Shown here: piece by piece, positions 5,271 through 64,000 of the stretch
Numbering within the stretch: the first letter of the stretch is position 1
Layout: the number at the start of each line of letters is the position of its first letter
From: Coleofasciculus sp. FACHB-1120
Lineage (GTDB): Bacteria; Cyanobacteriota; Cyanobacteriia; Cyanobacteriales; FACHB-T130
DNA length: 64,000 nucleotides
NCBI RefSeq assembly: GCF_014698845.1
Contig: NZ_JACJTV010000015.1
Location: forward strand, 1-64,000
Reading direction: 5' to 3'
The notes under the pieces: model-generated
Database searches by the model: none
The model's input: only the letters and a program-made list of their open reading frames with translations
Told to the model about the DNA's origin: nothing
Position numbers and translations under genes: made by a program

Positions 5271-6929
5271 CTATTTTGGCGGCTGTGAGACCAATAAGGG
5301 GGCGGCCTGTAGTAATGTCTGGGTATAGGGGTGCTGGGGATTGGTAAAAATCTCGTGGGTTGAGCCGAGTTCGACAATGCGACCAGCATTCATGACTGCA
5401 ATGCGATCGCATAAAAATCTCGCCACAGAGAGGTCGTGAGTAATAAACAAATACGTTAACTCGAAGTCTCGCTTTAACTCTAACATTAACTCCAGTACCT
5501 GTGTCTGGACGCTGGCATCCAGCATACTCACCGGCTCATCGCAGATGAGCAGTTTGGGGCGAGTAATCAAAGCCCGGGCGATCGCGACCCGTTGCTGCTG
5601 TCCTCCCGATAAATCTGAGGGATACCGCTCATAATACTCGGTTGTAGGCGTTAAGCCCACTCGCTCAAGCATCTGCATTACCTGCGCTTTCGCCTCATCA
5701 GCGCTAGCCAGTTTGTGAATAAACAGGGGATCGGCAATACTTTCACCCACCGTCATCAGCGGATTGAGGCAAGCATGGGGATCTTGAAACACCATTTGGA
5801 TTTGCCGCCGCGATGCTCGCACAGCTTTAGTAGACATCTGAGTTAAATCCTGTCCCAGAAACTCAACGCTTCCCTTCGTGGGACGAATTAACTGCAAGAT
5901 CGTCCGGGACAAGGTACTCTTCCCGCATCCAGATTCCCCGACTAAGCCTAAAATTTCCCCCGGATAAAGTTCCAAGTTGATATCATCTACTGCTTTAATA
6001 ACGGGGACATCTTTGGAAAAAAACTGTCCCAGGAAATTGCTCTCTAAGGTGTAGTATTGCTGCAAATTTTTGATTCGCAGTAGGGGGGTTGGTAAGGGTT
6101 CATTGCTCTGCGGCTCCTCGGCTCCGGTGTCATATCTCCGGATGTGAAAAGCCGCTTCCAGAAGCGATCGCGTATATTCGTGCTGCGGTTGCCGAAAAAT
6201 AGACTGGGGCGAACCCGTTTCTACCATTTTCCCGGCATACATCACCGCAATGCGATCGCAATACTCTCCCACCATTGCCAAATCGTGAGAAATCAGCAAC
6301 AATGCCATCTCCCGTTCCCGGCACAGTCGCGTCAATTCTTGTAAAATCTGCGCGGCTACGGTCACGTCTAAACTGGTCGTAGGCTCATCTGCCACAATTA
6401 GCTTTGGGTTGAGAAGCAAAGCCAGCGCGATCGCGACCCGTTGCCGCATCCCTCCACTAAACTCGTGAGGATACTGCGACCATCGACTTGCCGGGATCTT
6501 TACTGCATCCAGTGTTTCCAGTACCTTTTCCTTCCTCTGTTGTCGTGACAGATGAGGTTGATGACTCCCGATAGTTTCCAGACAGTGCTTTCCGATCGTC
6601 ATCAGGGGATCGAGGCGCGTCATCGGATCTTGAAACACCAGCGCCACCGCTTCCCCCCGAAACCGCCGTAACTGTGCCGGTGTCAGATCGAAAACCGACT
6701 TCCCAGCAAACGTCACCCGCCCCTCAATGCGAGACGAGGCTGGTAACAAGCGCATTGCTGCCCTTCCCAGAGTTGATTTACCGCAGCCTGATTCTCCTAC
6801 TAATCCCAGTTTCTCTCCAGGTTCTAACGTGAAAGAAACATCATCCACTGCCCAGGAAGGCATGGAAGTAGACCGACGGCTGGGATAAGCAACCCGGAGA
6901 TTTTCTACACAAAACAGGCTCTCAGTCAT
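5271..6929 (-). CDS. ABC transporter, tandem ATP-binding protein (oligopeptide/dipeptide type)
   Basis: A 552-aa protein from the ATG at 6929 (MTESLFCVENLRV); the frame extends to a TTG at 6971 without support. It has two complete nucleotide-binding domains in one chain, each with Walker A GESGCGKST. The signatures are SGGMRQRVAIA in the first half and SGGQQQRVAIA in the second, followed by Walker B-type LIVADEP and LLICDEP. Each half ends in the EYTRSLL/PYTQTLL oligopeptide-transporter tail, so this is a DppD-DppF-like fusion. Permease and binding-protein genes are not next to it; in cyanobacteria these are often scattered. It would energise import of peptides or similar solutes at the inner membrane. 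Confidence 0.88.
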   Translation of the reverse strand: MTESLFCVENLRVAYPSRRSTSMPSWAVDDVSFTLEPGEKLGLVGESGCGKSTLGRAAMRLLPASSRIEGRVTFAGKSVFDLTPAQLRRFRGEAVALVFQDPMTRLDPLMTIGKHCLETIGSHQPHLSRQQRKEKVLETLDAVKIPASRWSQYPHEFSGGMRQRVAIALALLLNPKLIVADEPTTSLDVTVAAQILQELTRLCREREMALLLISHDLAMVGEYCDRIAVMYAGKMVETGSPQSIFRQPQHEYTRSLLEAAFHIRRYDTGAEEPQSNEPLPTPLLRIKNLQQYYTLESNFLGQFFSKDVPVIKAVDDINLELYPGEILGLVGESGCGKSTLSRTILQLIRPTKGSVEFLGQDLTQMSTKAVRASRRQIQMVFQDPHACLNPLMTVGESIADPLFIHKLASADEAKAQVMQMLERVGLTPTTEYYERYPSDLSGGQQQRVAIARALITRPKLLICDEPVSMLDASVQTQVLELMLELKRDFELTYLFITHDLSVARFLCDRIAVMNAGRIVELGSTHEIFTNPQHPYTQTLLQAAPLLVSQPPK

Positions 6930-51266: not shown

Positions 51267-54200
51267 ATGAAGTCTGATAAATCATTGATAAACAACAAAA
51301 TTAAGCGGCAACTGCAACAAACACCTGTGGCGATTATCGGAATGGGTTGCATTTTTCCGCAAGCCAGGACTCTAGAAGAGTATTGGGAAAATATCGTTAC
51401 AAAAACCGATTGTATCTCTGATGTTCCTCCCTCACGCTGGCGGATTGAGGACTACTACGATCCAGATCCCAAGGCACCAGATAAGACCTATTGCAAACGC
51501 GGTGGATTCATCCCGGATATTGATTTTGATCCGATGGAATTTGGGTTGCCTCCCAATATTCTAGAGGTGACAGATGTCGCCCAAATGCTCTCGTTGGTAG
51601 TTGCCAAACAGGCAATGGAAGACGCTGGTTACGGTGAATCCAGAGATTTTAATCGAAAAGGCACAGGCGTCATTCTGGGCGTCGGGGGCGGGCAGAAACT
51701 AATTACGCCGCTAACTACCCGTTTGCAATATCCCGTTTGGGAGAAGGTTCTCAAAAACAGTGGTGTATCTGACGAAGATACCCAAAAGATTATTGAGAAG
51801 ATAAAACTTGCCTATATCGGCTGGGAAGAAAATTCTTTTCCGGGCATGCTGGGGAACGTGATTGCCGGACGAATTGCCAACCGCCTAGATTTAGGGGGAA
51901 TTAACTGTGTTGTGGATGCAGCCTGTGCCGGGTCATTAAGCGCCCTGCGTATGGCTTTGAGTGAATTGACCGAGTATCGTAGCGACATGATGATCGCGGG
52001 CGGTGTGGATGCCGACAATTCGATCTTCATGTATATGTGCTTTAGTAAAACGCCTGCCTTTTCTAAAGAAGGGAATTCTCGTCCCTTCGATATAAATTCC
52101 GACGGGATGCTGTTGGGTGAAGGCATGGGGATGATGGTACTCAAGCGTCTTGAAGATGCCGAACGAGATGGCGATCGCATTTATGCCGTCATCAAGGGAA
52201 TGGGCACCTCCAGCGATGGCAAATCTAAGAGCATTTATGCCCCTCGTTCGGAAGGGCAAGCCGTAGCGTTGCGTCGAGCTTATGAAGATGCTGGATTTTC
52301 ACCCTCAACCGTCGGTCTGATTGAAGCTCATGGTACAGGAACCGTCGCTGGCGATCCGACAGAGTTTGCAGGCTTAAATGAAGTTTTTAGCCAAAACAAC
52401 CCCCAAAAACAACATATTGCTTTGGGGAGTGTTAAGTCTCAGATTGGACATACAAAAGCAACAGCAGGTGCAGCCAGCCTGATCAAAACGGCTTTGGCTT
52501 TGCACCACAAGATATTACCCCCCACGATTAATATCACCCAACCCAACCCTAGACTTAAAATTGAAGAATCACCCTTCTATTTGAATACCGAAACCCGACC
52601 CTGGATTGGCATTGATGCTGAAACGCCAAGAAGAGCAGGGGTCAGTGCGTTTGGCTTTGGAGGCACAAATTATCATGTCGTCCTCGAAGAATATCAAAGG
52701 GAACATCAGCAGGCTTATCGTTTACACAGTACGCCAGCGACCATTCTGCTGGACGCTCCAACAGTAGGAGAATTATTAGCGAAGTGTGAAACCCTAGAGT
52801 CGCAATTAGCAAGCGATCGCGGTACACAACATTACACAGAACTTGTCACCGCTGCGAGTTTGAAAATTCCCGTTGCCTCAGCCAGAGTGGGATTTGTCGC
52901 CACCTCTGCCGCAGAAGCGCGTGAATTATTGCAGATTACGATTGACTTACTGAAAAACAAGGCAACAGCCCAATCGTGGGAGCATCCCAAAGGAATCTAT
53001 TACCGCAAAACTAGCCTGAACCCCCAAGGGAAAGTAGTAGCGCTGTTTTCGGGGCAAGGTTCGCAGTATTTGGAGATGGGTAAGGAACTTGTCCTTAACT
53101 TCCCTCAGCTTCGCCAAGCTTACAGCGATATGGACAAATACCTGGGTAAAAATGGGTTGCCACCCATTTCCCAAGTCGTTTTCCCGTGTCCTGTTTTTGA
53201 CAACGCCCAAAAGGATGCCCAAATTGCGGCATTGCAACAAACCGAAAATGCCCAACCCGCAATTGGTGCCTTGAGTTTTGGTCTCTACAAAATTCTAGAA
53301 GAGGCAGGGTTCAAGCCTGATTTTGTGGCAGGGCACAGCTTTGGGGAACTGACGGCACTATGGGCGGCGGGCGTTCTGAATGACGAAGATTACTTTTTCC
53401 TCGTCAAAGCCAGAGGTCAAGCAATGGCATCTCCCGACGATCCAAAAGTCGATACCGGCATGATGCTGGCGGTGAAAGGGGATATTTATAAAGTCAAAGA
53501 AGTTGTCGAGAATTTCCCCAAAATCACCATTGCCAACTGGAACTCTAACAATCAGGTGGTATTAGCGGGAGCGAAGGGAGAAATCGCCAAAGTCCAGCAG
53601 AAATTGGAGCAGCTTGGGTATTCGGTTGTTTTACTACCCGTTTCCGCAGCTTTCCATTCACCGTTTGTCGCTCACGCTCAAAAACGGTTTGCGGAGGTGC
53701 TGGATCGAGTTACTTTCAATCAGCCGAAGATCCCGGTATACTCCAATACAACCGGAAATCTTTATCCAGACAATTCCCATACCATCGGACAAACCTTAGC
53801 TGCACATATTGTCAATCCTGTGCATTTTAAGCAGGAAGTTGAAAATATTTACGCAGCCGGGGGATATTTCTTTGTCGAATTTGGCCCTAGGAATATCCTG
53901 ACCAATCTGGTGAAGAATATCCTCGAAAATCGACCCCATTTGGCGATCGCTTTGAATGCTAGTAGCAAAGGGGATAGCCAGCGCCAGTTGTGCGAAGCCT
54001 TTGTTCAGTTGCGCGTGGCTGGCTTGTCTTTACAAAACCTCGATCCTTACCTAGTTAAACCAAAAGCATCCAATTCTCAGCAAAAGAAGAGATTGAATGT
54101 GCCTTTAAACGGCGCTAACTATGTTAGTGAAAAAACCAAAGCTGCTTTTGAACAAGCTTTGCAAAACGGACACCAAGTTAAGGGAAATCCAGAAAGGGAA

Positions 54201-55484
54201 AACCGGAATGGGAAATCGACACAGGAGCCGAAGAAATCTTTAGCCCCGAAACCAACACCACAAATCGCCCCAATCCCTAGTCCTCAACCCGTAATTCCCG
54301 TAGCCGCAATTCCCGTAGTCAAAATGCCAGAGCCGATACCAGTTCCACCCGCAACCAAATCAGAGGCGCAACCAATGCCACAATCTTCTGGAAATAATCA
54401 GGGTCTTCTAGAAAGTTTAGAGCGCAACATGATGCGCTTTCACGAGCATCAAGCTGCCAGCCAGCAAGTTCACGAACAATACCTGAAAAATCAGTTGGAA
54501 TATTCCCAAAGATTTTTCCAGCTCATGCAGCAACATTATTCCCTTTTGGGTGCTGGTAATGGTGCCAATGGGTCAGTTGTGAATGGTCAGGTGTCAATCG
54601 CGCCCGTTCGGAGCTTGGAACAAGGGCAAAACGGACAAGCGACATCTGAAAAACCACAGTATTCGGTTGTTGCCCCCACTACCCCGGCTGTTGCGCCGAC
54701 GCCTGTGCCAGATGCCGTCTTTGCCTCGGTGCCAGTGTCCCAACCCGTTTCCAGCAATGGTTCGCAGCCAGCTCAGGCTCGCCAAGTAGAGACAAGCCTG
54801 CAAAATCAAATTGCTCAAGCAGAGCAGGTAGAAGTTGCGCCATCAATCATTGAAACAACCTCTAGTCCGTCCGTAAGTCCGTCTGTAACAGCGCCAGCGG
54901 TGGATTTGACCCCCCTGATCGAATCCCTGTTAGAAGTAGTCAGTGAGAAGACGGGCTACCCCACGGAAATGCTAGAGCTTTCGATGGATATGGAAGCGGA
55001 TTTGGGGATTGACTCGATCAAGCGGGTGGAAATCTTAGGAGCAATGCAGGAGCTTTTCCCTGATTTGCCGCCGGTGAATCCAGAACAGTTAGCCGAACTC
55101 CGCACCCTCGCTCAAATTGTTGAATATATGGGCAACAAAGCTCCATCAACAGAGGTCGAGGTTTCCTCTCCAATGGCAGCAGTTTCAGCGAAGGCAGAAA
55201 ACGGATTTGCCTCCCAGGAGAAGGCAACTGCTCTGATTCAATCCTTGTTAGAAGTGGTCAGTGAGAAGACGGGCTACCCCACGGAAATGCTAGAGCTTTC
55301 GATGGACATGGAAGCGGATTTGGGGATTGACTCGATCAAGCGGGTGGAAATCTTGGGAGCAATGCAGGAGTTATTCCCTGATTTGCCGCCGGTGAATCCA
55401 GAACAGTTAGCCGAACTCCGCACCCTTGCTCAAATTGTTGAATATATGAGCCAGGAGTCGCGGGTGGCTGAAAAAAAAACTTAA
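51267..55484 (+). CDS. Secondary-lipid synthase (PfaA/HglE-like), KS-AT-ACP-ACP part
   Basis: A 1405-aa type I synthase. KS (about 18-475): Cys in DAACAGS (C220), HGTGT (H355) and SQIGH (H395), a complete triad. AT (about 595-900): FSGQGSQYLEMG and GHSFGE (S691). A Pro/Gln-rich linker runs to about 1210. Two ACPs lie at 1217-1288 and 1323-1394, each with the phosphopantetheine serine in LGIDSIKR. The chain stops at VAEKKT after a nine-A run; one frame over, the reading continues into KR-DH (55478-57991), restoring the PfaA-type order KS-AT-ACPn-KR-DH. Homology style is that of heterocyst-glycolipid and PUFA synthases. Confidence 0.9.
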   Translation: MKSDKSLINNKIKRQLQQTPVAIIGMGCIFPQARTLEEYWENIVTKTDCISDVPPSRWRIEDYYDPDPKAPDKTYCKRGGFIPDIDFDPMEFGLPPNILEVTDVAQMLSLVVAKQAMEDAGYGESRDFNRKGTGVILGVGGGQKLITPLTTRLQYPVWEKVLKNSGVSDEDTQKIIEKIKLAYIGWEENSFPGMLGNVIAGRIANRLDLGGINCVVDAACAGSLSALRMALSELTEYRSDMMIAGGVDADNSIFMYMCFSKTPAFSKEGNSRPFDINSDGMLLGEGMGMMVLKRLEDAERDGDRIYAVIKGMGTSSDGKSKSIYAPRSEGQAVALRRAYEDAGFSPSTVGLIEAHGTGTVAGDPTEFAGLNEVFSQNNPQKQHIALGSVKSQIGHTKATAGAASLIKTALALHHKILPPTINITQPNPRLKIEESPFYLNTETRPWIGIDAETPRRAGVSAFGFGGTNYHVVLEEYQREHQQAYRLHSTPATILLDAPTVGELLAKCETLESQLASDRGTQHYTELVTAASLKIPVASARVGFVATSAAEARELLQITIDLLKNKATAQSWEHPKGIYYRKTSLNPQGKVVALFSGQGSQYLEMGKELVLNFPQLRQAYSDMDKYLGKNGLPPISQVVFPCPVFDNAQKDAQIAALQQTENAQPAIGALSFGLYKILEEAGFKPDFVAGHSFGELTALWAAGVLNDEDYFFLVKARGQAMASPDDPKVDTGMMLAVKGDIYKVKEVVENFPKITIANWNSNNQVVLAGAKGEIAKVQQKLEQLGYSVVLLPVSAAFHSPFVAHAQKRFAEVLDRVTFNQPKIPVYSNTTGNLYPDNSHTIGQTLAAHIVNPVHFKQEVENIYAAGGYFFVEFGPRNILTNLVKNILENRPHLAIALNASSKGDSQRQLCEAFVQLRVAGLSLQNLDPYLVKPKASNSQQKKRLNVPLNGANYVSEKTKAAFEQALQNGHQVKGNPERENRNGKSTQEPKKSLAPKPTPQIAPIPSPQPVIPVAAIPVVKMPEPIPVPPATKSEAQPMPQSSGNNQGLLESLERNMMRFHEHQAASQQVHEQYLKNQLEYSQRFFQLMQQHYSLLGAGNGANGSVVNGQVSIAPVRSLEQGQNGQATSEKPQYSVVAPTTPAVAPTPVPDAVFASVPVSQPVSSNGSQPAQARQVETSLQNQIAQAEQVEVAPSIIETTSSPSVSPSVTAPAVDLTPLIESLLEVVSEKTGYPTEMLELSMDMEADLGIDSIKRVEILGAMQELFPDLPPVNPEQLAELRTLAQIVEYMGNKAPSTEVEVSSPMAAVSAKAENGFASQEKATALIQSLLEVVSEKTGYPTEMLELSMDMEADLGIDSIKRVEILGAMQELFPDLPPVNPEQLAELRTLAQIVEYMSQESRVAEKKT
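54915..55448 (+). repeat. Near-identical direct duplication encoding the tandem ACPs
   Basis: The 216-bp unit at 54915-55130 recurs at 55233-55448, an offset of 318 bp that keeps the frame (106 codons). By eye there are about nine base differences, so the copies are about 96% identical, with most changes silent. This implies recent duplication or ongoing gene conversion. Confidence 0.9.
55471..55479 (+). other. Nine-A slippery run at the synthase frame junction
   Basis: GAA AAA AAA ACT TAA in the upstream frame. A one-base backward slip on the A-run (or one extra A in the mRNA) reads AAA AAC TTA ACC and continues without a stop through the linker (P-E-S-Q-Q-A-E-A-E) into the KR domain. The window A AAA AAA fits the X XXY YYZ shape for -1 frameshifting, and A9 is long enough for polymerase slippage. 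A GCTGAA hexamer tract follows at about 55503-55524. Confidence 0.75.
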
Positions 55485-55579
55485 CCCCAGAATCGCAGCA
55501 AGCTGAAGCTGAAGCTGAAGCTGAACACAAGATTAAACGCGGTCGGGCGAGGCTCCAACCTCTGAGTGAGGCAGATTAT

Positions 55580-57991
55580 TTGGATTTCACCTTGCCCGAC
55601 CATCACATTTGTTTGCTGACCGATGACGGTAGCCCTGCCAGTATCAGATTGGTCAAGTCTCTTTCAGACCGAGGGTGGAAAGTGGTTGTATTAAGTTTCC
55701 CCGAATCTGTTATTGCCCAACGGCTACCGTTACCGGAAGGAATTAGCCGTGTGGTGCTGGCAGATTTGAGCGAGGAGCATTTGAAACAACAGCTAATGGC
55801 GATCGCGCAAAACTACGGCTCGATTGGCGCGTTCGTTCATCTGCATCCCTCAATTCAAGAAAGTCTTGGGCAGGAATCGGAGAAAGCTATCCTCAAGCAT
55901 ATCTTTCTGATTGCTAAGCACCTCAAAAAATCCCTGAATGAAGCAGCACGTCAAGGACGCAGTTGTTTCCTCACCGTGAGCCGCCTGGATGGGCAATTCG
56001 GTTTAAGTCGCAAAACAGAGTTTAGCGCCATCGGTGGGGGGCTGTTCGGCTTGACAAAAACCCTCAACCTGGAATGGGAACGGGTATTTTGTCGCGCTAT
56101 CGATTTGAGTCCCGCTTTCGATGCAGAATTTGTCGCCCAATCGATTGTCGCGGAAATTCATGACCCCAATCGGTTGATTACCGAAGTCGGGTACAGTTCC
56201 CAGGGTAGAACCACCCTGGTTTGCGAGCTGTGTAGGGTTACGAAGAATGTTCGCGGCACAAAAAATCAAATTACTCCATCCTCGGTGTTTCTCGTCAGCG
56301 GCGGTGGACGCGGGATTACTTCCCAGTGCGTCATTAAGTTAGCGCAACGCTACCGATGCAAATTTATCCTCCTCGGTCGCTCAGCCATCAATCCCGAACC
56401 AGCATGGGCAAAAGGCTGTGTTGATGAATTTAATTTTAAAAAGCGGATTATGGCAGATATTACTGCACGAGGAGAGAAACCTACCCCAGTCAAAGTCCAA
56501 AAGACACTGAAGGCGATTTTAGCCCAACGAGAAATCGCCCAAACGCTGGAAGCCATTGAGCAAGCGGGTGGGAAAGCAGAATATCTCAGCGCAGACATTA
56601 CCGATGCGATCGCTTTAAAGGAAAAACTAGCAGATGCGGTTCGGCGTTTCGGAGCGATCTCAGGAATTCTTCATGGCGCTGGCAATTTAGCAGATAAATT
56701 GATTGAGAATAAATCCGAACAAGATTTTGAAGCCGTTTATACTGCCAAAGTCAAAGGGTTGGAAAATCTGCTGAGTTGTGTCAACGCGAATCAAATCAAG
56801 CATTTGGTGTTGTTCGCTTCAGCCGCTGGGTTTTACGGGAATATTGGTCAATCGGATTATGCGATCGCTAATGAGATTCTCAATAAATTTGCCCATCACT
56901 TCAAGCGCCTCCATTCCGAATGTCATGTAGCTTCCTTCAATTGGGGACCGTGGGATGGCGGGATGGTTACGCCTGAGTTGAAACAGATTTTTGCCGAACG
57001 CAACGTTGAGGTGATTCCCGTTGAAGTGGGAACTCAGATGCTAGTTGACGAACTGGATTTTGGCGAACGGGAAACGGTACAAGTCTTAGTGGGTAGCCCC
57101 CTGGTAGTCGTGTCTGGAGAGTTGGATTCAGAACTGCGTACTTACCAAATTCATCGAAAATTAAACCTGAAAGCGAATTCCTTTTTGCAAGATCATGCAA
57201 TCGGTGGTCAAGCGGTATTACCAACCGTTTGTGGTTCGGTATGGCTTGCTAATGTTAGCGAACAGCTATATCCTGGCTACAAGTTTTTTAGCTGTGAAAA
57301 CTTCAAAGTCTTAAAAGGCATTGTTTTCGATGAAACATTGGCAAGCGGATACATCTTGGAAGTGAAGGAAGTCAATAAATCCCAGAACGAGCAACTCGAA
57401 CTCGCAGCGACGATATGGAGTGAAGCGGAACCCGGAAAACGCCGCTATCATTACAACGGTCAGGTCAAACTCCTGAAGAAAATTCCGGAAGCTCCTACTT
57501 ATGAATTCGACAGAACCCAAAATCAAGAGTTTGCGTCTCTGTCACCTTATCAGGATGGCACCTTGTTTCATGGCCCTAGTTTTAAAGGGGTCAAACAAGT
57601 TTTAAATATCACGCCAGAAACCCTGACGATGGAATGTGTTTTACCCCAGCTCAATGAAGAACAGCGGGGACAGTTTCCGGCACAAGCATTCGATTTTGTC
57701 GCCAAAGATGTGCAATTTCAGTGCATGTTGATTTGGGTAAGGCATTTTTATCAGGCGGCTAGTCTACCATTACGCTGCCAGAAAGGAGAGCATTTCCAAT
57801 CGATTCCCTTGGGTAAACCATTTTACGTGTCGATGGAAGTGATATCCAGCAATGAGAATAAGTTGGTGGCAAACATCACTTCCCATGATATTCAAGGAAA
57901 AGTTTACTCACGGGTATTTGGGGCAGAAGTGACGATTAGCAAACAACTGAATCGTCTATTCTTTAACTCAGAAAAAGCAGGAGTTAAGTAA
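55580..57991 (+). CDS. Secondary-lipid synthase, KR-DH part (continuation of the 51267 gene in the -1 frame)
   Basis: About 803 aa from a TTG, but the same frame is open from 55478 with no start codon or ribosome-binding site, so it is best read as the C-terminal part of the upstream synthase. An inactive Rossmann-like half (about 5-215) precedes a ketoreductase with NADPH motif SGGGRGIT (about 238-246) and the catalytic region FASAAGFYGNIGQSDYAIANE. From about 540 a PS-DH hotdog dehydratase begins: FLQDHAIGGQAVLPT (catalytic His), with a second hotdog unit near 640-780. The product would reduce and dehydrate beta-ketoacyl-ACP. Confidence 0.8.
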   Translation: MDFTLPDHHICLLTDDGSPASIRLVKSLSDRGWKVVVLSFPESVIAQRLPLPEGISRVVLADLSEEHLKQQLMAIAQNYGSIGAFVHLHPSIQESLGQESEKAILKHIFLIAKHLKKSLNEAARQGRSCFLTVSRLDGQFGLSRKTEFSAIGGGLFGLTKTLNLEWERVFCRAIDLSPAFDAEFVAQSIVAEIHDPNRLITEVGYSSQGRTTLVCELCRVTKNVRGTKNQITPSSVFLVSGGGRGITSQCVIKLAQRYRCKFILLGRSAINPEPAWAKGCVDEFNFKKRIMADITARGEKPTPVKVQKTLKAILAQREIAQTLEAIEQAGGKAEYLSADITDAIALKEKLADAVRRFGAISGILHGAGNLADKLIENKSEQDFEAVYTAKVKGLENLLSCVNANQIKHLVLFASAAGFYGNIGQSDYAIANEILNKFAHHFKRLHSECHVASFNWGPWDGGMVTPELKQIFAERNVEVIPVEVGTQMLVDELDFGERETVQVLVGSPLVVVSGELDSELRTYQIHRKLNLKANSFLQDHAIGGQAVLPTVCGSVWLANVSEQLYPGYKFFSCENFKVLKGIVFDETLASGYILEVKEVNKSQNEQLELAATIWSEAEPGKRRYHYNGQVKLLKKIPEAPTYEFDRTQNQEFASLSPYQDGTLFHGPSFKGVKQVLNITPETLTMECVLPQLNEEQRGQFPAQAFDFVAKDVQFQCMLIWVRHFYQAASLPLRCQKGEHFQSIPLGKPFYVSMEVISSNENKLVANITSHDIQGKVYSRVFGAEVTISKQLNRLFFNSEKAGVK

Positions 57992-58104: not shown

Positions 58105-61100
58105 ATGGAAAAAATTGCAATCATTGGTTTATCTAGCTTGTTTCCAGGCGCAGAAAGTCCTGAGCAATACTGGCAGAATTTAATTGCTAAAAAAGATTTT
58201 AAAAGCTTGGCAACAGCCGAACAAATGGGAGTAGATCCCCAAAAATTTTATTCTACAGAAAAAGGGAAGCTGGATAAATACTATTGTTTGAAAGGAGGCT
58301 ATATTCGAGATTTTCAGTTAGATACCAGCGAGTATCAGATGGCTCCGGAGTTACTGAAAAACTTAGATGAAATTTATCAATGGTCTTTATACGTCTCAAA
58401 ACAAGCTTTAAAAGATAGCGGTTATTTAGGCAATCAATCAGTTCTGGAAAAATGCGGCGTGATCCTGGGAAATCTTTCTTTTCCTACCCGCTTTTCCCAT
58501 CGCTTTTTTGCACCAATCTATCAAAAATTTCTCGATTCAGCCCTTCAGCAACTTTTAAAAGAAGAATCTTTCCAACTAAAAAAACCATCTTCTGATGTCT
58601 CTCTTTTAAATGGAATGTTATCCGGGTATCCGGCAGCAGTTATTGCTCAAGCGCTGTCTTTATCCGGTATCAATTTATCTCTGGATGCAGCCTGTGCAAC
58701 ATCGCTGTATGCAGTTAAATTAGCTTGTCACTATCTGTTATCCGGCAAAGCTGACCTGATGTTAGCGGGTGCGGTGAGTTGCGCCGATCCGTTCTTCATC
58801 AATATGGGATTTTCTATTTTCCACGCTTATCCAGAAGATGGGATATCGCGTCCTTTTGATAAGTCATCCGGAGGACTCGTGGCTGGGGAAGGAGCCGGAA
58901 TGGTTGTCCTGAAACGATATAGCGATGCGCTGCGAGATGGCGATCGCATCTACGCCACAATCTGCGGTGTTGGCTTATCGAATGACGGGAAAGGGAAATT
59001 CGTCCTCAGTCCTAATCCCAAAGGGCAAATCTTAGCCTTTGAACGGGCATATATCGAAGCCGGAATACATCCCAACAGTATCGATTACATCGAGTGTCAT
59101 GCCACGGGTACTCCGGTCGGAGATATCACCGAACTCAACTCGATGGAAACCTTCTTCGGTCAGCATCAAACGGTACCTCTGATTGGTTCTGTCAAATCCA
59201 ATTTTGGTCACTTGTTGACGGCTGCGGGGATCGCGGGTCTCATCAAAGTGATTTTGAGCATGAGCGAAGAGGTCATCCCGGCGACAATCGACGTAATTGA
59301 CCCCCTCAGTTCGGAAAAAGGCGCGATCGCTGCTGAGCAGATGGTCACTTCCCCGACACCTTGGCCTCAAAAATTACCTACCAAACGTGCCGCTATCAAT
59401 GCTTTTGGTTTTGGTGGCACCAATGCTCATTTGATTTTGGAGTCATCAGAAGACATCGGAAGTGGGAAAGAAAGGGCAAAGGCAGCGACAAATACCTCGA
59501 TCCAAAATCCAAAATCTCAAACCCAAAATCGACTCGCGATCGTCGGCATGGATGCCTTTTTTGGCTCCTGTAAAAGTTTAGATGCCTTCGAGCGCACAAT
59601 TTATGAAGGAACGCAGCATTTTATCCCCCTTCCGCCTCAGCGTTGGCAAGGTATCGAAGAGCAACCCCAATTACTCAAAGAATATGGCTTGGCGACTGGC
59701 GAAGCGCCTCTAGGAGCCTACATCCAAGATTTTGAACTCGATTTCTTAAATTTCAAAATCCCGCCCCGCGATGAAGATCAACTCATTCCTCAACAGCTAT
59801 TAATGCTAAAGGTGGCGGACAACGCCATCAAAGATGCAAAACTCGCTCAAGGGGGAAATGTCGCCGTGATTGTGGCGATGGGGACAGAACTCTCCCTACA
59901 CCAGTATCGGGGTCGATGCGATTTATCTTGGCAAATCAAAGAAAGCTTGGAACAAGCGAATATTTCTTTGTCTCCCGAAAAACTTGCCGAACTGGAAGCC
60001 ATTACCAAAGATAGCTTGCATCCTCCGGCGCAAGTCAACCGATACACCAGCTTCATCGGTAATGTGATGGCTAGTCGCATTTCCGCCCAATGGGATTTCA
60101 CGGGTCCCTCTTTCACCATTTCTGCCGAAGAAAATTCGGTTTTTAAAGCTTTAGAAGTCGCTCAATTACTTCTGTCTAATGGAGAAATCGATGCTGTTGT
60201 CGTCGGTGCGGTCGATCTCTCTGGGGGATTGGAAAATGTATTATTCCGCCAGCAGTTAGCACCGATTAATCAAGGGATTCCTACCTTAAGCTTTGATGAA
60301 AATGCGAATGGCTGGATGGTCGGTGAAGGCTCAGGTGCCGTAGTTTTAAAGCGACACGAAGCAGCCAAACAAGAGCAAGACCGAATTTATGCTGTTATTG
60401 ATGCCATCAGCTTAATTCAGGATAATGCTAATCATCAATCGACGAGCGATCGCACCCTCACACAAGCTTGTCAGCAGGCGTTCGATTTAGCAGGTGTTCA
60501 ACCTACAGACATTGGGTATCTGGAAGTTTTTGGCAGTGGCGTTGCACCAGAAGATGAAGCCGAAATCAAAGGTTTACTCTCTGCCTATCAGACGTCCCAA
60601 GCAAGCTTGAGTTGTTGCCTGGGCAGTGTCAAAGCCAACATTGGTCATACCTATGCTGCTTCCGGGATGGCAAGTTTAATCAAAACTGTCCTCTGCTTAT
60701 ATCATCGGTACATTCCTGCGACTCCCCAGTGGTCTAGGCCGAAAATGCCTCAGCTTTGGCAAGGCAGTCCCTTCTACGTCGCCACCGAATCGAGAACTTG
60801 GTTTTTAGAACCCGAAGCATCTAAGAGAGTCGCTGCCATCAACGGTTTAGGAATAGATGGCACTTATTCTCACATCATCCTCTCGGAAGAATTGAGTCAA
60901 AAAGAGCGTCCCAGCAAGTATCTCGAACAAACACCGTTCTATCTATTTCCCCTCACCGCTAATCATCAATCTGCTTTGCTCGAACGGCTGAATTCGCTCC
61001 AGAATCTGATTGAAACCGCTGACGATTTATCAGTTGCAGCGACACAGACCTTTACTGCTTTTGGGCAATCCCCCCAGGCAACTTATACCCTAGCGATTGT

Positions 61101-64000
61101 CGGTTCTAATAAACAGGAAATACTGCGGGAAATCCGCTTAGCGATCGCAGGGATTAAAAAAAGCTTTGAAACTGGCGGAGAATGGAAAACACCGCTTGGC
61201 AGTTATTTCACACCGAAACCTTTAGGAAAAGAGGGTAAAGTTGCCTTCGTTTACCCAGGTATGGCTAGTTCTGCTCTCGGACTAGGACGGGACATTTTCC
61301 AGCTATTTCCTAAGGTTTACGATAGCTTCTCAACTCTGACTCACTCTCCAGGTCAGGTCATGCACGAGAAACTTCATTATCCCAGAAGTTTAGAAAAACT
61401 TTCCAGTCAAGCACAAGCAGAGAAACAGGCAGAATTTCTGGGTGACGGAGTAGTAATGTGCCAAACCGGAATCAGTTTGGCAGTGCTATATAGTCTCATT
61501 CTCAGACAGTATTTCCATGTCCAACCCCAAGTTGCATTTGGGTATAGCTTGGGTGCAGCTATCACTATGCTGTTTGCACTTGACATTTGGCGCGATGATG
61601 GGAAAATAAACGATGCTTTAGTCGCATCTCCTCTATTTAAAACTGATTTATGCGGTCCCTGTTTAGCGGGACGTAGGTTTTGGGATTTGCCGGAAAGCGA
61701 TCGCTCGGAAAAATTCTGGATTTCCTATGTTCTCAAAGCACCAGTATCGGCAGTTAAGGAAGTCCTGAAGCATGAAAAACGTGTTTATCTGTCATTCATC
61801 AATACTCCCGATGAAGTAGTCATTGGTGGCGAGCCGCAAGCTTGCTTAAGAGTTATTGAAACTCTCCAATGCAAATATTTTCCCATGAATTTTGACAGTG
61901 TATTGCACTGCGAACCAACAAATACTGAATATGACGGATTGGTTGAACTATTAACAATTCCTATTCAGAATGTACCCGATATTCAATTTTATTCTGGAGT
62001 AGATTACGCTCCGATTAAGCTAGACACGAATTCTCTGGCTCATAATGCCGCCAAAATCTGCTGTACAACAGTTGATTTTCCTAGAATTATTCATCGTGTC
62101 TACGAAGATGGTGCCAGAATCTTCATTGAGCTAGGCGCAGGAAACAACTGTTCCCGATGTATTAGCGAAACGCTTAAGCAACAAGAGTATGTTGCCATGT
62201 CCATCAATACAAAAGGCGTTGATGACCATACTGGGGTGGTCAGGGTTTTAGCAAAACTCGTGAGTCACGGTGTCTCCGTGGACTTGTCACCGCTTTATAG
62301 TCAACCACCAGAAAAATCCATCCAACGTCAATCAATTGTCAAAAAAGTTACTTTGGGTGGAAGCCGAATTTATTCTAAAATATTGACCGCTGAAAATTGT
62401 GAAACTTTCCAAAAAGAGATAGCAAACACGGGGAACAAATCAAAAATCATGACAATAGCCAAAGATCCACAACAGACAACTAACCATCAAGAGCAAATGA
62501 TGAAGATATTTCAGCTACAAATCGCTGTAGCCGAACAATTATTGAATCAAAATATATCCGTTAAAGACAAGGGTCAGATAGCCCCTGCAACTTCAGATTC
62601 GCAGCGAAATAGTTACACAAAGCCTTCTAATATTGTTTGGGATGAAGCAGATTTACTGGAATTTGCTGAAGGGAAAATATCCCGTGTCTTCGGTCAAGAC
62701 TATGACATTATCGATTCTTATTCCCGGCGAGTGCGGCTGCCAGTTCCTCCCTATCTCTTGGTGAGCAGAGTTACTAAACTCGATGGTGAAATAAATAGCT
62801 TTAAACCCTCTTCAATCACAACCGAATACGATATTCCCCAGAATGCCTGGTACGCTGTTGATGGTCAAGCGCCTTGGGCAATCAGCGTAGAATCAGGTCA
62901 ATGCGATTTATTATTAATCAGCTACCTAGGAATCGATTTTGAAAATAAAGGCGAACTGGTTTATCGCTTGCTTGATTGCACCCTGACGTTTCTAGATGAT
63001 TTACCCAAAGAAGGACAAACCCTACGTTATGACATTAGCATAAATTCTTTTGTGCGAAGCGGAGATAACCTACTATTTTTCTTTAGCTACGAGTGCTTTG
63101 TTGGGGATAAAATGATCCTCAAAATGGACGGAGGATGTGCTGGATTCTTCTCCGATGAACAACTCGAAAATGGAAAGGGAATTATTGTTTCCGATAAAGA
63201 GCTTGAAGAGCGAAGTAAGATTCCAAAGCAAAAGTTTGAGCCTCTGCTAATCTGCCAGAAAACAAGCCTTGATGAGTCAGATATGTTACGCCTTACCGAG
63301 GGTAATATTGCTGCCTGTTTAGGAGACCATTATTGGCAAGACGGCTTAAATCCCTCCTTGCGCTTGCCCCCGAAGGCAATGCTCATGATCGATCGGGTTA
63401 CATCAGTAGAACCCACTGGAGGGGCTTGGGGTCTAGGTCTAATTATCGGCGAAAAATTTCTCGACCCAGATCATTGGTATTTCCCCTGCCACTTCAAAGA
63501 CGATCAGGTGATGGCTGGTTCCTTGATGGCAGAAGGCTGTGGTCAACTCTTGCAATTCTATCTCCTCTATTTAGGATTGCAAACCTACACAACCGATGCT
63601 CGATTTCAACCAATTCCAGGTTTGCCACAGGTAGTCCGTTGCCGAGGACAGGTGACTCCCATTTCTGGCAAACTAATCTATCGGATGGAAATTACTGAAA
63701 TCGGCATTACACCAAAACCTTATGCAAAATGTAATGTTGAAGTCATCCTGAACGGCAAAATCGTTGTTCACTTCAAAGATTTGGGCTTGCAGTTATCTGA
63801 AAAGAACCCTAATCATTCAATTTCTGCTGAACAAGCGATAAACAACTCTCAACAAAAGGCAGGATTACCCCGGAAACCAGCCTTATTAAATGAAGATCAA
63901 GTCAACGAATTTTGTCTGGGTTCGGTTGCTAAGTGTTTTGGGCCAGAATTCGCAATTTATGACAACGGTAGCGTCAAAGCTTCGCGGATGCCCAATACTC
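58105..64000 (+). CDS. Secondary-lipid synthase (PfaC/HglC-like) KS-CLF-AT-DH-DH, cut by window end
   Basis: The frame stays open from the ATG at 58105 (AGGA 7 nt upstream) to the window end, about 1965 codons. KS (about 1-455): DAACATS (C197), HATGTP (H332), FGH (H369), complete triad. A second KS-like domain (about 470-930) has SAEENS where the Cys belongs (E676) and no HGTGT, so it is a chain-length factor. An AT-like domain follows (about 1040-1400) with GYSLG (S1148). A PfaC-type DH1 (SYSRRVRLPVPPYLLVSRV ... WYAVDGQAPWA) and a FabA-like DH2 with CHFKDDQVMAGSLMAEG (H1796) come next. Including an AT between CLF and DH resembles a fusion of separate PfaB/PfaC or HglC/HglD activities. Confidence 0.88.
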   Translation, partial: MEKIAIIGLSSLFPGAESPEQYWQNLIAKKDFKSLATAEQMGVDPQKFYSTEKGKLDKYYCLKGGYIRDFQLDTSEYQMAPELLKNLDEIYQWSLYVSKQALKDSGYLGNQSVLEKCGVILGNLSFPTRFSHRFFAPIYQKFLDSALQQLLKEESFQLKKPSSDVSLLNGMLSGYPAAVIAQALSLSGINLSLDAACATSLYAVKLACHYLLSGKADLMLAGAVSCADPFFINMGFSIFHAYPEDGISRPFDKSSGGLVAGEGAGMVVLKRYSDALRDGDRIYATICGVGLSNDGKGKFVLSPNPKGQILAFERAYIEAGIHPNSIDYIECHATGTPVGDITELNSMETFFGQHQTVPLIGSVKSNFGHLLTAAGIAGLIKVILSMSEEVIPATIDVIDPLSSEKGAIAAEQMVTSPTPWPQKLPTKRAAINAFGFGGTNAHLILESSEDIGSGKERAKAATNTSIQNPKSQTQNRLAIVGMDAFFGSCKSLDAFERTIYEGTQHFIPLPPQRWQGIEEQPQLLKEYGLATGEAPLGAYIQDFELDFLNFKIPPRDEDQLIPQQLLMLKVADNAIKDAKLAQGGNVAVIVAMGTELSLHQYRGRCDLSWQIKESLEQANISLSPEKLAELEAITKDSLHPPAQVNRYTSFIGNVMASRISAQWDFTGPSFTISAEENSVFKALEVAQLLLSNGEIDAVVVGAVDLSGGLENVLFRQQLAPINQGIPTLSFDENANGWMVGEGSGAVVLKRHEAAKQEQDRIYAVIDAISLIQDNANHQSTSDRTLTQACQQAFDLAGVQPTDIGYLEVFGSGVAPEDEAEIKGLLSAYQTSQASLSCCLGSVKANIGHTYAASGMASLIKTVLCLYHRYIPATPQWSRPKMPQLWQGSPFYVATESRTWFLEPEASKRVAAINGLGIDGTYSHIILSEELSQKERPSKYLEQTPFYLFPLTANHQSALLERLNSLQNLIETADDLSVAATQTFTAFGQSPQATYTLAIVGSNKQEILREIRLAIAGIKKSFETGGEWKTPLGSYFTPKPLGKEGKVAFVYPGMASSALGLGRDIFQLFPKVYDSFSTLTHSPGQVMHEKLHYPRSLEKLSSQAQAEKQAEFLGDGVVMCQTGISLAVLYSLILRQYFHVQPQVAFGYSLGAAITMLFALDIWRDDGKINDALVASPLFKTDLCGPCLAGRRFWDLPESDRSEKFWISYVLKAPVSAVKEVLKHEKRVYLSFINTPDEVVIGGEPQACLRVIETLQCKYFPMNFDSVLHCEPTNTEYDGLVELLTIPIQNVPDIQFYSGVDYAPIKLDTNSLAHNAAKICCTTVDFPRIIHRVYEDGARIFIELGAGNNCSRCISETLKQQEYVAMSINTKGVDDHTGVVRVLAKLVSHGVSVDLSPLYSQPPEKSIQRQSIVKKVTLGGSRIYSKILTAENCETFQKEIANTGNKSKIMTIAKDPQQTTNHQEQMMKIFQLQIAVAEQLLNQNISVKDKGQIAPATSDSQRNSYTKPSNIVWDEADLLEFAEGKISRVFGQDYDIIDSYSRRVRLPVPPYLLVSRVTKLDGEINSFKPSSITTEYDIPQNAWYAVDGQAPWAISVESGQCDLLLISYLGIDFENKGELVYRLLDCTLTFLDDLPKEGQTLRYDISINSFVRSGDNLLFFFSYECFVGDKMILKMDGGCAGFFSDEQLENGKGIIVSDKELEERSKIPKQKFEPLLICQKTSLDESDMLRLTEGNIAACLGDHYWQDGLNPSLRLPPKAMLMIDRVTSVEPTGGAWGLGLIIGEKFLDPDHWYFPCHFKDDQVMAGSLMAEGCGQLLQFYLLYLGLQTYTTDARFQPIPGLPQVVRCRGQVTPISGKLIYRMEITEIGITPKPYAKCNVEVILNGKIVVHFKDLGLQLSEKNPNHSISAEQAINNSQQKAGLPRKPALLNEDQVNEFCLGSVAKCFGPEFAIYDNGSVKASRMPNT

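Follow-up and report, generated by a model that had tools for sequence, protein, structure and literature searches.

The DNA analysed here, referred to as the window, is a 64,000 nt stretch of the Coleofasciculus sp. FACHB-1120 genome (positions 1 to 64,000 of contig NZ_JACJTV010000015.1). It carries a gene for a PfaA/HglE-type lipid synthase that is divided between two reading frames at a run of nine adenines. The features are as follows.

51267 to 55484, + strand: zero-frame ORF of 1405 aa, KS-AT-ACP-ACP, stop TAA at 55482-55484 (ORF, Pfam and TIGR02813).
55242 to 55445, + strand: second ACP, the final domain before the run (Pfam, residues 1326-1393).
55469 to 55471, + strand: TGA closing the −1 frame upstream; its final A is the first A of the run (sequence).
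55471 to 55479, + strand: A9 run, the proposed slippage site (sequence; the same in the congener).
55472 to 55478, + strand: A AAA AAA heptamer in the zero-frame register (sequence).
55482 to 55484, + strand: TAA terminating the predicted short product, VAEKKT-stop (ORF; the same in the congener).
55472 to 57991, + strand: −1 frame with the linker, a putative structural part, KR and a C-terminal PfaA-like region (ORF, Pfam KR and PfaA profile positions 1757-2581).
56285 to 56956, + strand: KR domain in the −1 frame (Pfam, residues 270-493 of the −1 product, P0001).
55568 to 55582, + strand: start candidate with GAGG at 55568-55571 and TTG at 55580-55582, replaced by GTG in the congener (considered less probable than slippage).
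58105 to 64000, continuing to contig position 65031, + strand: PfaC/HglC-like gene with two KS, a PfaB-like AT region and a FabA-like domain (ORF and domain content).

The A9 run is the sole homopolymer of at least 9 nt in the window. Around it the zero frame reads GCT GAA AAA AAA ACT TAA, with the TAA two bases past the A9. The −1 frame is uninterrupted from 55472 to 57991. The two frames share a 10 nt overlap that is essentially the A9 run itself. Hence, any shift that joins them must occur in or at the A-run. An earlier note, made from the sequence of the window, had described the A9 junction, the KS-AT-ACP-ACP frame ending VAEKKT-stop and the open −1 continuation; sequence, ORFs and Pfam matches confirmed all three.

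The 1405-aa zero-frame protein has Pfam matches for KS, AT and two phosphopantetheine sites. The two halves were scanned separately against the PfaA profile, TIGR02813. The N-terminal half scored 1720 bits, where the cut-off is 1010. P0001, the −1 product read from 55478, has a Pfam KR and aligns with positions 1757-2581 of the 2582 in the profile. The KR-DH label given to this frame in the earlier note thus holds for KR by Pfam; no Pfam model matched a DH domain in the C-terminal half at E ≤ 1e-5, and the DH part of the label rests on the PfaA-profile alignment. With KS, AT, ACP repeats and KR in order, and the PfaA profile matching both halves, the gene is of the PfaA/HglE type. Genes similar to PfaC and PfaD come after it, the first assigned by domain content and the second, at contig positions 65199-66854 beyond the window, matched by TIGR02814. 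Homologues with fused frames of about 2300-2400 aa are present among relatives. These, and the profile that spans both halves, bear out the proposal that the −1 frame continues the linker and restores the PfaA/HglE-type order.

We compared the junction with that of one further genome of the genus (G001, the congener). The A9, the TAA and the −1 frame are identical there, with differences around them, and a 12-nt length difference near the junction keeps the frame. For this single genome pair the Nei-Gojobori dN/dS was 0.138 for the N-terminal half (1401 codons) and 0.112 for the C-terminal half read at −1 (837 codons). By these sequence ratios, both halves are under purifying selection. The first 45 codons past the shift hold 1 synonymous and 4 nonsynonymous changes, too few, in one close pair, to judge. 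A sequencing or assembly indel in the window was the plain alternative named in the earlier note, and homopolymers are error-prone. Because the congener has the identical A9, stop and −1 frame, such an error is very unlikely; the −1 relation also recurs at the run in 39 further junctions, and we give this alternative almost no weight.

Junctions between ACP and KR were gathered from overlapping groups of genomes: 100 relatives, 388 genomes of the order and 386 of the phylum. Two more groups were searched, the order to which a gammaproteobacterial genome belongs (42 genomes) and the class that includes a SAR324 genome (52 genomes), and a single scan of genome contigs was added. The matches fetched, which are part of those listed, gave 152 hits and, after repeats of the same stretch were dropped, 123 distinct junctions; one locus (L097) had no ACP in range. 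No two of the 123 are more than 99.5% identical over the compared stretch. Many are mutually related, so the counts given here are not independent events. The run scored was the longest A-run between the ACP and KR matches.

A run of A8-A12 lies in the linker at 86 of the 123 junctions; 41 of these have the KR half at −1, 43 are in frame and 2 are at +1 (L113 with A10 and L120 with A9). Every one of the 41 −1 junctions in the set carries A8-A11 (A8 in 1, A9 in 24, A10 in 11 and A11 in 5). By origin, 15 are cyanobacterial and 4 gammaproteobacterial, and the remaining 22 belong to the SAR324 class. The in-frame junctions number 80, comprising 36 without a run of at least 7 A, 1 with A7 and 43 with A8-A12, of which 35 are A10. 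Examples of −1 junctions are listed below.

Calothrix sp. PCC 7103 (L040): A10, −1.
Xenococcus MAG (L039): A9, −1.
Trichodesmium MAG (L043): A9, −1.
Gammaproteobacterial MAG (L045): A11, −1.
SAR324 MAG (L041): A10, −1.

Ranked by identity, the five relatives that follow the congener comprise four at −1 (L045, L055, L056 and L040) and one, L044, in frame with A11. A continuous A10 frame in all relatives, which the earlier note had named as speaking against its proposal, is therefore not what the relatives have.

Some genes outside the 123 are also of interest. Two genomes (G771 with L220, and G767 with L222) hold a further paralogue with A9, a zero-frame stop at most 5 nt past the run and the KR half at −1. 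In a plasmid gene of Persicobacter psychrovividus (L287, near position 5960), the ACP|KR border carries a −1 break with no A-run; the sister strain (L288) has a fused frame and likewise no run. These plasmid genes are from Bacteroidota and about 40% identical. The Persicobacter break argues against a general rule that no break occurs without a run.

Long A-runs are rare elsewhere in the same genes. Outside the junction, runs of at least 8 A number 22 in 357 kb of coding DNA (about 0.06 per kb), and 20 of them are A8, 1 is A9 and 1 is A10. Lysine is encoded by AAA in 78% of cases in these genes outside the junction, and GAA AAA AAA is used at 12 of the 69 other Glu-Lys-Lys sites. By the latter comparison, we judge it unlikely that the run is a mere by-product of a lysine-rich protein.

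Among the 61 other runs of at least 9 A in the source genome, 2 connect a pair of frames with 100 codons or more apiece, 3 fall within an open frame and, by these thresholds, 56 do neither. Of the 2 that join frames, one is kept as A9 in the congener and the other has no run there. The first (L264; contig C15, 76357-76365, minus strand, outside the window) is an A9 junction with a −1 continuation. Its frames encode an acidic protein ending SNPEKKTP-stop and then, by eye, the Hsp70-like motif GIDFGTTG; the parts scanned gave no Pfam match. The A9 is identical in the congener, inside DNA that is about 85% identical. At the second (L228; contig C1, 390204-390212, minus strand), A9 joins two frames with the look, by eye, of an acyl-AMP ligase. 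By alignment the congener frame looks continuous here, and the break is apparently a recent change or an error. Since the congener is continuous at this site, a chance break at a run looks unlike the synthase junction.

We consider that the A9 is probably a conserved, programmed −1 slippage site from which one lipid synthase gene would yield a short and a long product. Without a slip, translation would end one codon past the last full AAA codon and release a short KS-AT-ACP-ACP protein. If the ribosome slipped back by one base, or if RNA polymerase added one A, decoding would pass into the −1 frame and produce the full KS-AT-ACP-ACP-KR synthase. In relatives with an in-frame run, mostly A10 and HglE-like, the polarity would be reversed and slippage would give the short form. 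The evidence that points to slippage is the presence of A8-A11 at all 41 −1 junctions, the rarity of such runs elsewhere, selection on both halves and the fused homologues. From the run, the frames, their conservation, the selection on them and the nearby stops described next, we infer the occurrence of slippage, its efficiency and the use of two products. Of the claims in the earlier note, two products from one gene by slippage is the best-supported explanation, with the run and the −1 relation recurring in several phyla and the products themselves predicted.

Stop codons lie close behind the run in both classes of gene. Among −1 genes, the distance from the run to the zero-frame stop has a median of 6 nt, a figure for which there is no control, and a maximum of 36 nt. 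Where an in-frame gene carries a run, its hidden −1 frame closes at a median distance of 12 nt, against 39 nt at control positions within these genes. No such shortening is seen for the hidden +1 frame (30 versus 21 nt). The 43 genes concerned are mostly related, so this comparison is not independent. Stops near the run in both classes indicate that, whichever form the DNA encodes directly, the other would arise by a net −1 event at the run. As 37 of the 123 junctions lack a run of at least 8 A and are in frame, the short form is not needed everywhere.

An alternative is that the KR half starts by reinitiation after the stop of the short protein, and that the two polypeptides work together. 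The earlier note held that the −1 frame has neither a start nor a ribosome-binding site. This was too strong: a GAGG lies 8 nt ahead of the TTG at 55580-55582, and the congener keeps this GAGG in front of a GTG at the corresponding place. Similarly, L069 has a TTG with GGAG. These sequences make the TTG or GTG a weak candidate for an internal start. Starts were searched for up to a conserved TDDG-like motif, leaving uncounted the 4 of the 41 −1 genes that lack it. Some ATG, GTG or TTG, mostly TTG, was found in 26 of the remaining 37 genes; the other 11 have no start codon in this interval, and a start combined with an SD-like motif occurs in 3 of the 37, the window gene and the congener among them. 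With a nearer cut-off, which misses the congener GTG, 22 of 41 −1 genes had no start and 2 of 41 had a start with an SD-like motif. Moreover, the TTG is residue 35 of P0001, and matches to fused homologues begin at residues 2-19. Hence, a start at the TTG would drop linker that aligns with them. In favour of separate polypeptides, some HglE-like loci encode a portion of the KR half in a distinct ORF that has its own ATG, for example of 574 aa in Calothrix PCC 7103; this split falls about 250 residues beyond the ACP|KR junction. Reinitiation leaves both the conserved A-run and its occurrence in frame unexplained, and we regard it as decidedly unlikely. As a separate observation, the synthase of the HglE-like locus L212 (8502-9115) has another split, about 250 residues into the KR half, which appears to be a real gene border with its own ATG.

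The history of the run was followed on a maximum-likelihood tree of the N-terminal part of KR, with 123 rows. Its bootstrap had not converged, and it has several long branches. A-runs occur in its SAR324, gammaproteobacterial and cyanobacterial groups. Most run-less rows (33 of 37) sit in one group of 39 rows that also holds 6 rows with runs; the remaining ones are L016, L017, L158 and L025. The frame classes require at least 15 changes on this tree. Some sister genes are one A apart: L061 (A9, in frame) and L069 (A8, −1), L014 (A9, in frame) and L113 (A10, +1), and L044 (A11, in frame) and L115 (A10, −1). Judging from such pairs, the DNA frame can flip with the run retained. Within genera, the run was A9 in both genomes of the source genus and, for one HglE-like gene, A10 in frame in 13 of 13 genomes of another. 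A further paralogue in that other genus varies: two genomes have an in-frame A9 and a third has A10 at +1.

These data bear on two further alternatives. In the first, which is the most serious rival, run length drifts and slippage is simply tolerated: it would rescue enough full-length protein, and the short product would have no role. Changes of frame by single A's between sister genes are in keeping with this, as is the A9 −1 junction that another gene of the source genome has and the congener lacks. Against it, selection would be needed to keep 8-12 A's across phyla in a linker that is variable by eye; A10 is held in all 13 genomes of one genus for one gene group; and in-frame genes, though mostly related ones, have early stops in their alternative −1 frame. 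We consider this explanation unlikely. The second is phase variation, in which changes in the length of the DNA run would switch the long synthase on or off between cells. The earlier note had proposed such a switch. The differences between sister genes and the paralogue that varies between three genomes are what it would predict, but it is weakened by the constancy of A9 in the source genus and of A10 in the HglE-like gene, and we see only a slight chance that it is correct.

If slippage at the run does occur, either the ribosome or RNA polymerase could be responsible. For the window, no RNA structure was found behind the run (z about −0.1); across the −1 class the mean z was −0.65, with 7 of 41 genes below −2. 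In the in-frame class, stable folds (z below −2) follow the run in 17 of 43 genes. In the window AGGAG lies 13 nt before the run, and in the congener AGGA lies 14 nt before it; an SD-like motif within 24 nt before the run is present in 10 of 41 −1 genes. Neither an SD sequence nor RNA structure was therefore accepted as a stimulator in the window, and a stimulator is not required for poly-A slippage. The in-frame genes have features of their own. A strong SD-like sequence, GGAGGTG, directly adjoins the run in 21 of 43 genes, for example at the A10 loci L119, L139, L141 and L149. The sequence GAA AAA AAA AAG, present in 30 of 43, contains the E. coli dnaX heptamer A AAA AAG. Ribosomal slippage fits the A AAA AAA register and, in the in-frame class, A AAA AAG, the abutting GGAGGTG and the folds behind the run. 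RNA polymerase slippage fits the length of the runs, which are at least 8 A throughout where 7 would serve a ribosome, as well as the +1 shift at two junctions and the rarity of stimulators among −1 genes. The direction of the shift does not decide between them: at dnaX of Thermus, slippage inserts one A or more (PMC5009743, available portion), and one added A is a net −1. On balance, slippage by RNA polymerase is slightly favoured over ribosomal −1 shifting.

Similar sites have been described in other genes; the comparisons that follow draw on the available portions of the papers cited. The dnaX gene (tau and gamma subunits of DNA polymerase III) uses A AAA AAG and the ribosome in E. coli, and A9 and RNA polymerase in Thermus; its long form is in frame, and reversed, two-ORF −1 forms are known too (PMC3711429, PMC5009743). 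The synthase resembles dnaX in having a poly-A site in both polarities; in dnaX the short and long products end at one point. It differs in belonging to another gene family, in being known here from sequence, and in lacking a stimulator in the window. Mg-chelatase genes have a −1 shift at A7-A11 and fused homologues elsewhere, and their frameshifting was measured in E. coli at 10, 40 and 63% for 7, 9 and 11 A's, respectively (PMC3711429). The synthase shares the −1 shift at poly-A and the fused homologues; it is a different enzyme, with Mg-chelatase measured and the synthase read from DNA alone. For IS transposase genes with A8-A10 in Nostoc PCC 7120 and Deinococcus, poly-A slippage was proposed to join frames (PMC1088944). 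There too, two frames meet at poly-A, and in a cyanobacterium; unlike the transposases, the synthase is encoded by a chromosomal biosynthetic gene and not a mobile element.

The closest relationship is to the PfaA/HglE-type synthases of hgl and hgl-like islands, with which the locus shares TIGR02813 matches in both halves and PfaC- and PfaD-like genes that follow. A study of hgl islands describes small islands of seven genes, including hglE, F and G, in five ORFs, and reports gene fusions and fissions (PMC11804610); the word 'frameshift' was not found in the available portion of its text. There, hglEA of Anabaena PCC 7120 is given as 4626 bp (PMC11804610). In genome G320 the A-run is located 1545 codons after an ATG. 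By this published length and the G320 position alone, the annotation of hglEA in PCC 7120 may stop at the run. In Calothrix PCC 7103 there is a second synthase copy, with A10 in frame; to judge by eye, the genes that come next in its cluster resemble those for a KR-DH protein, PfaC, PfaD and an ACP-thioester reductase. From gene order alone we take this second locus to be the heterocyst glycolipid island of the strain.

Among the matches listed by our literature search, which covered open-access papers without their supplements, none described recoding in a polyketide or fatty-acid synthase. As far as that search reaches, poly-A slippage would be new for the PfaA/HglE-type family, although the family could be among the 134 predicted frameshift clusters of PMC3711429, of which a portion was available. 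If the reading is correct, slippage lets a family of lipid megasynthases, among them HglE-like genes, produce two enzymes from a single gene. This could explain differing ORF borders between annotations and seemingly broken genes, and would help in studying how the reduction pattern of a product is set by an iterative synthase. The slippage claim is testable in culturable cyanobacteria. A broader and quite unlikely proposal is that slippage at ACP|KR is an old device of the PfaA/HglE family, extending from SAR324 to heterocyst glycolipid genes, which would fix the ratio of enzyme with and without the reducing half and thus the balance of keto and hydroxy groups in a long-chain lipid.

Finally, the two ACP stretches of the window gene (54915-55133 and 55233-55451) are 95% identical in DNA. 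Such near-identity suggests a recent duplication or gene conversion.
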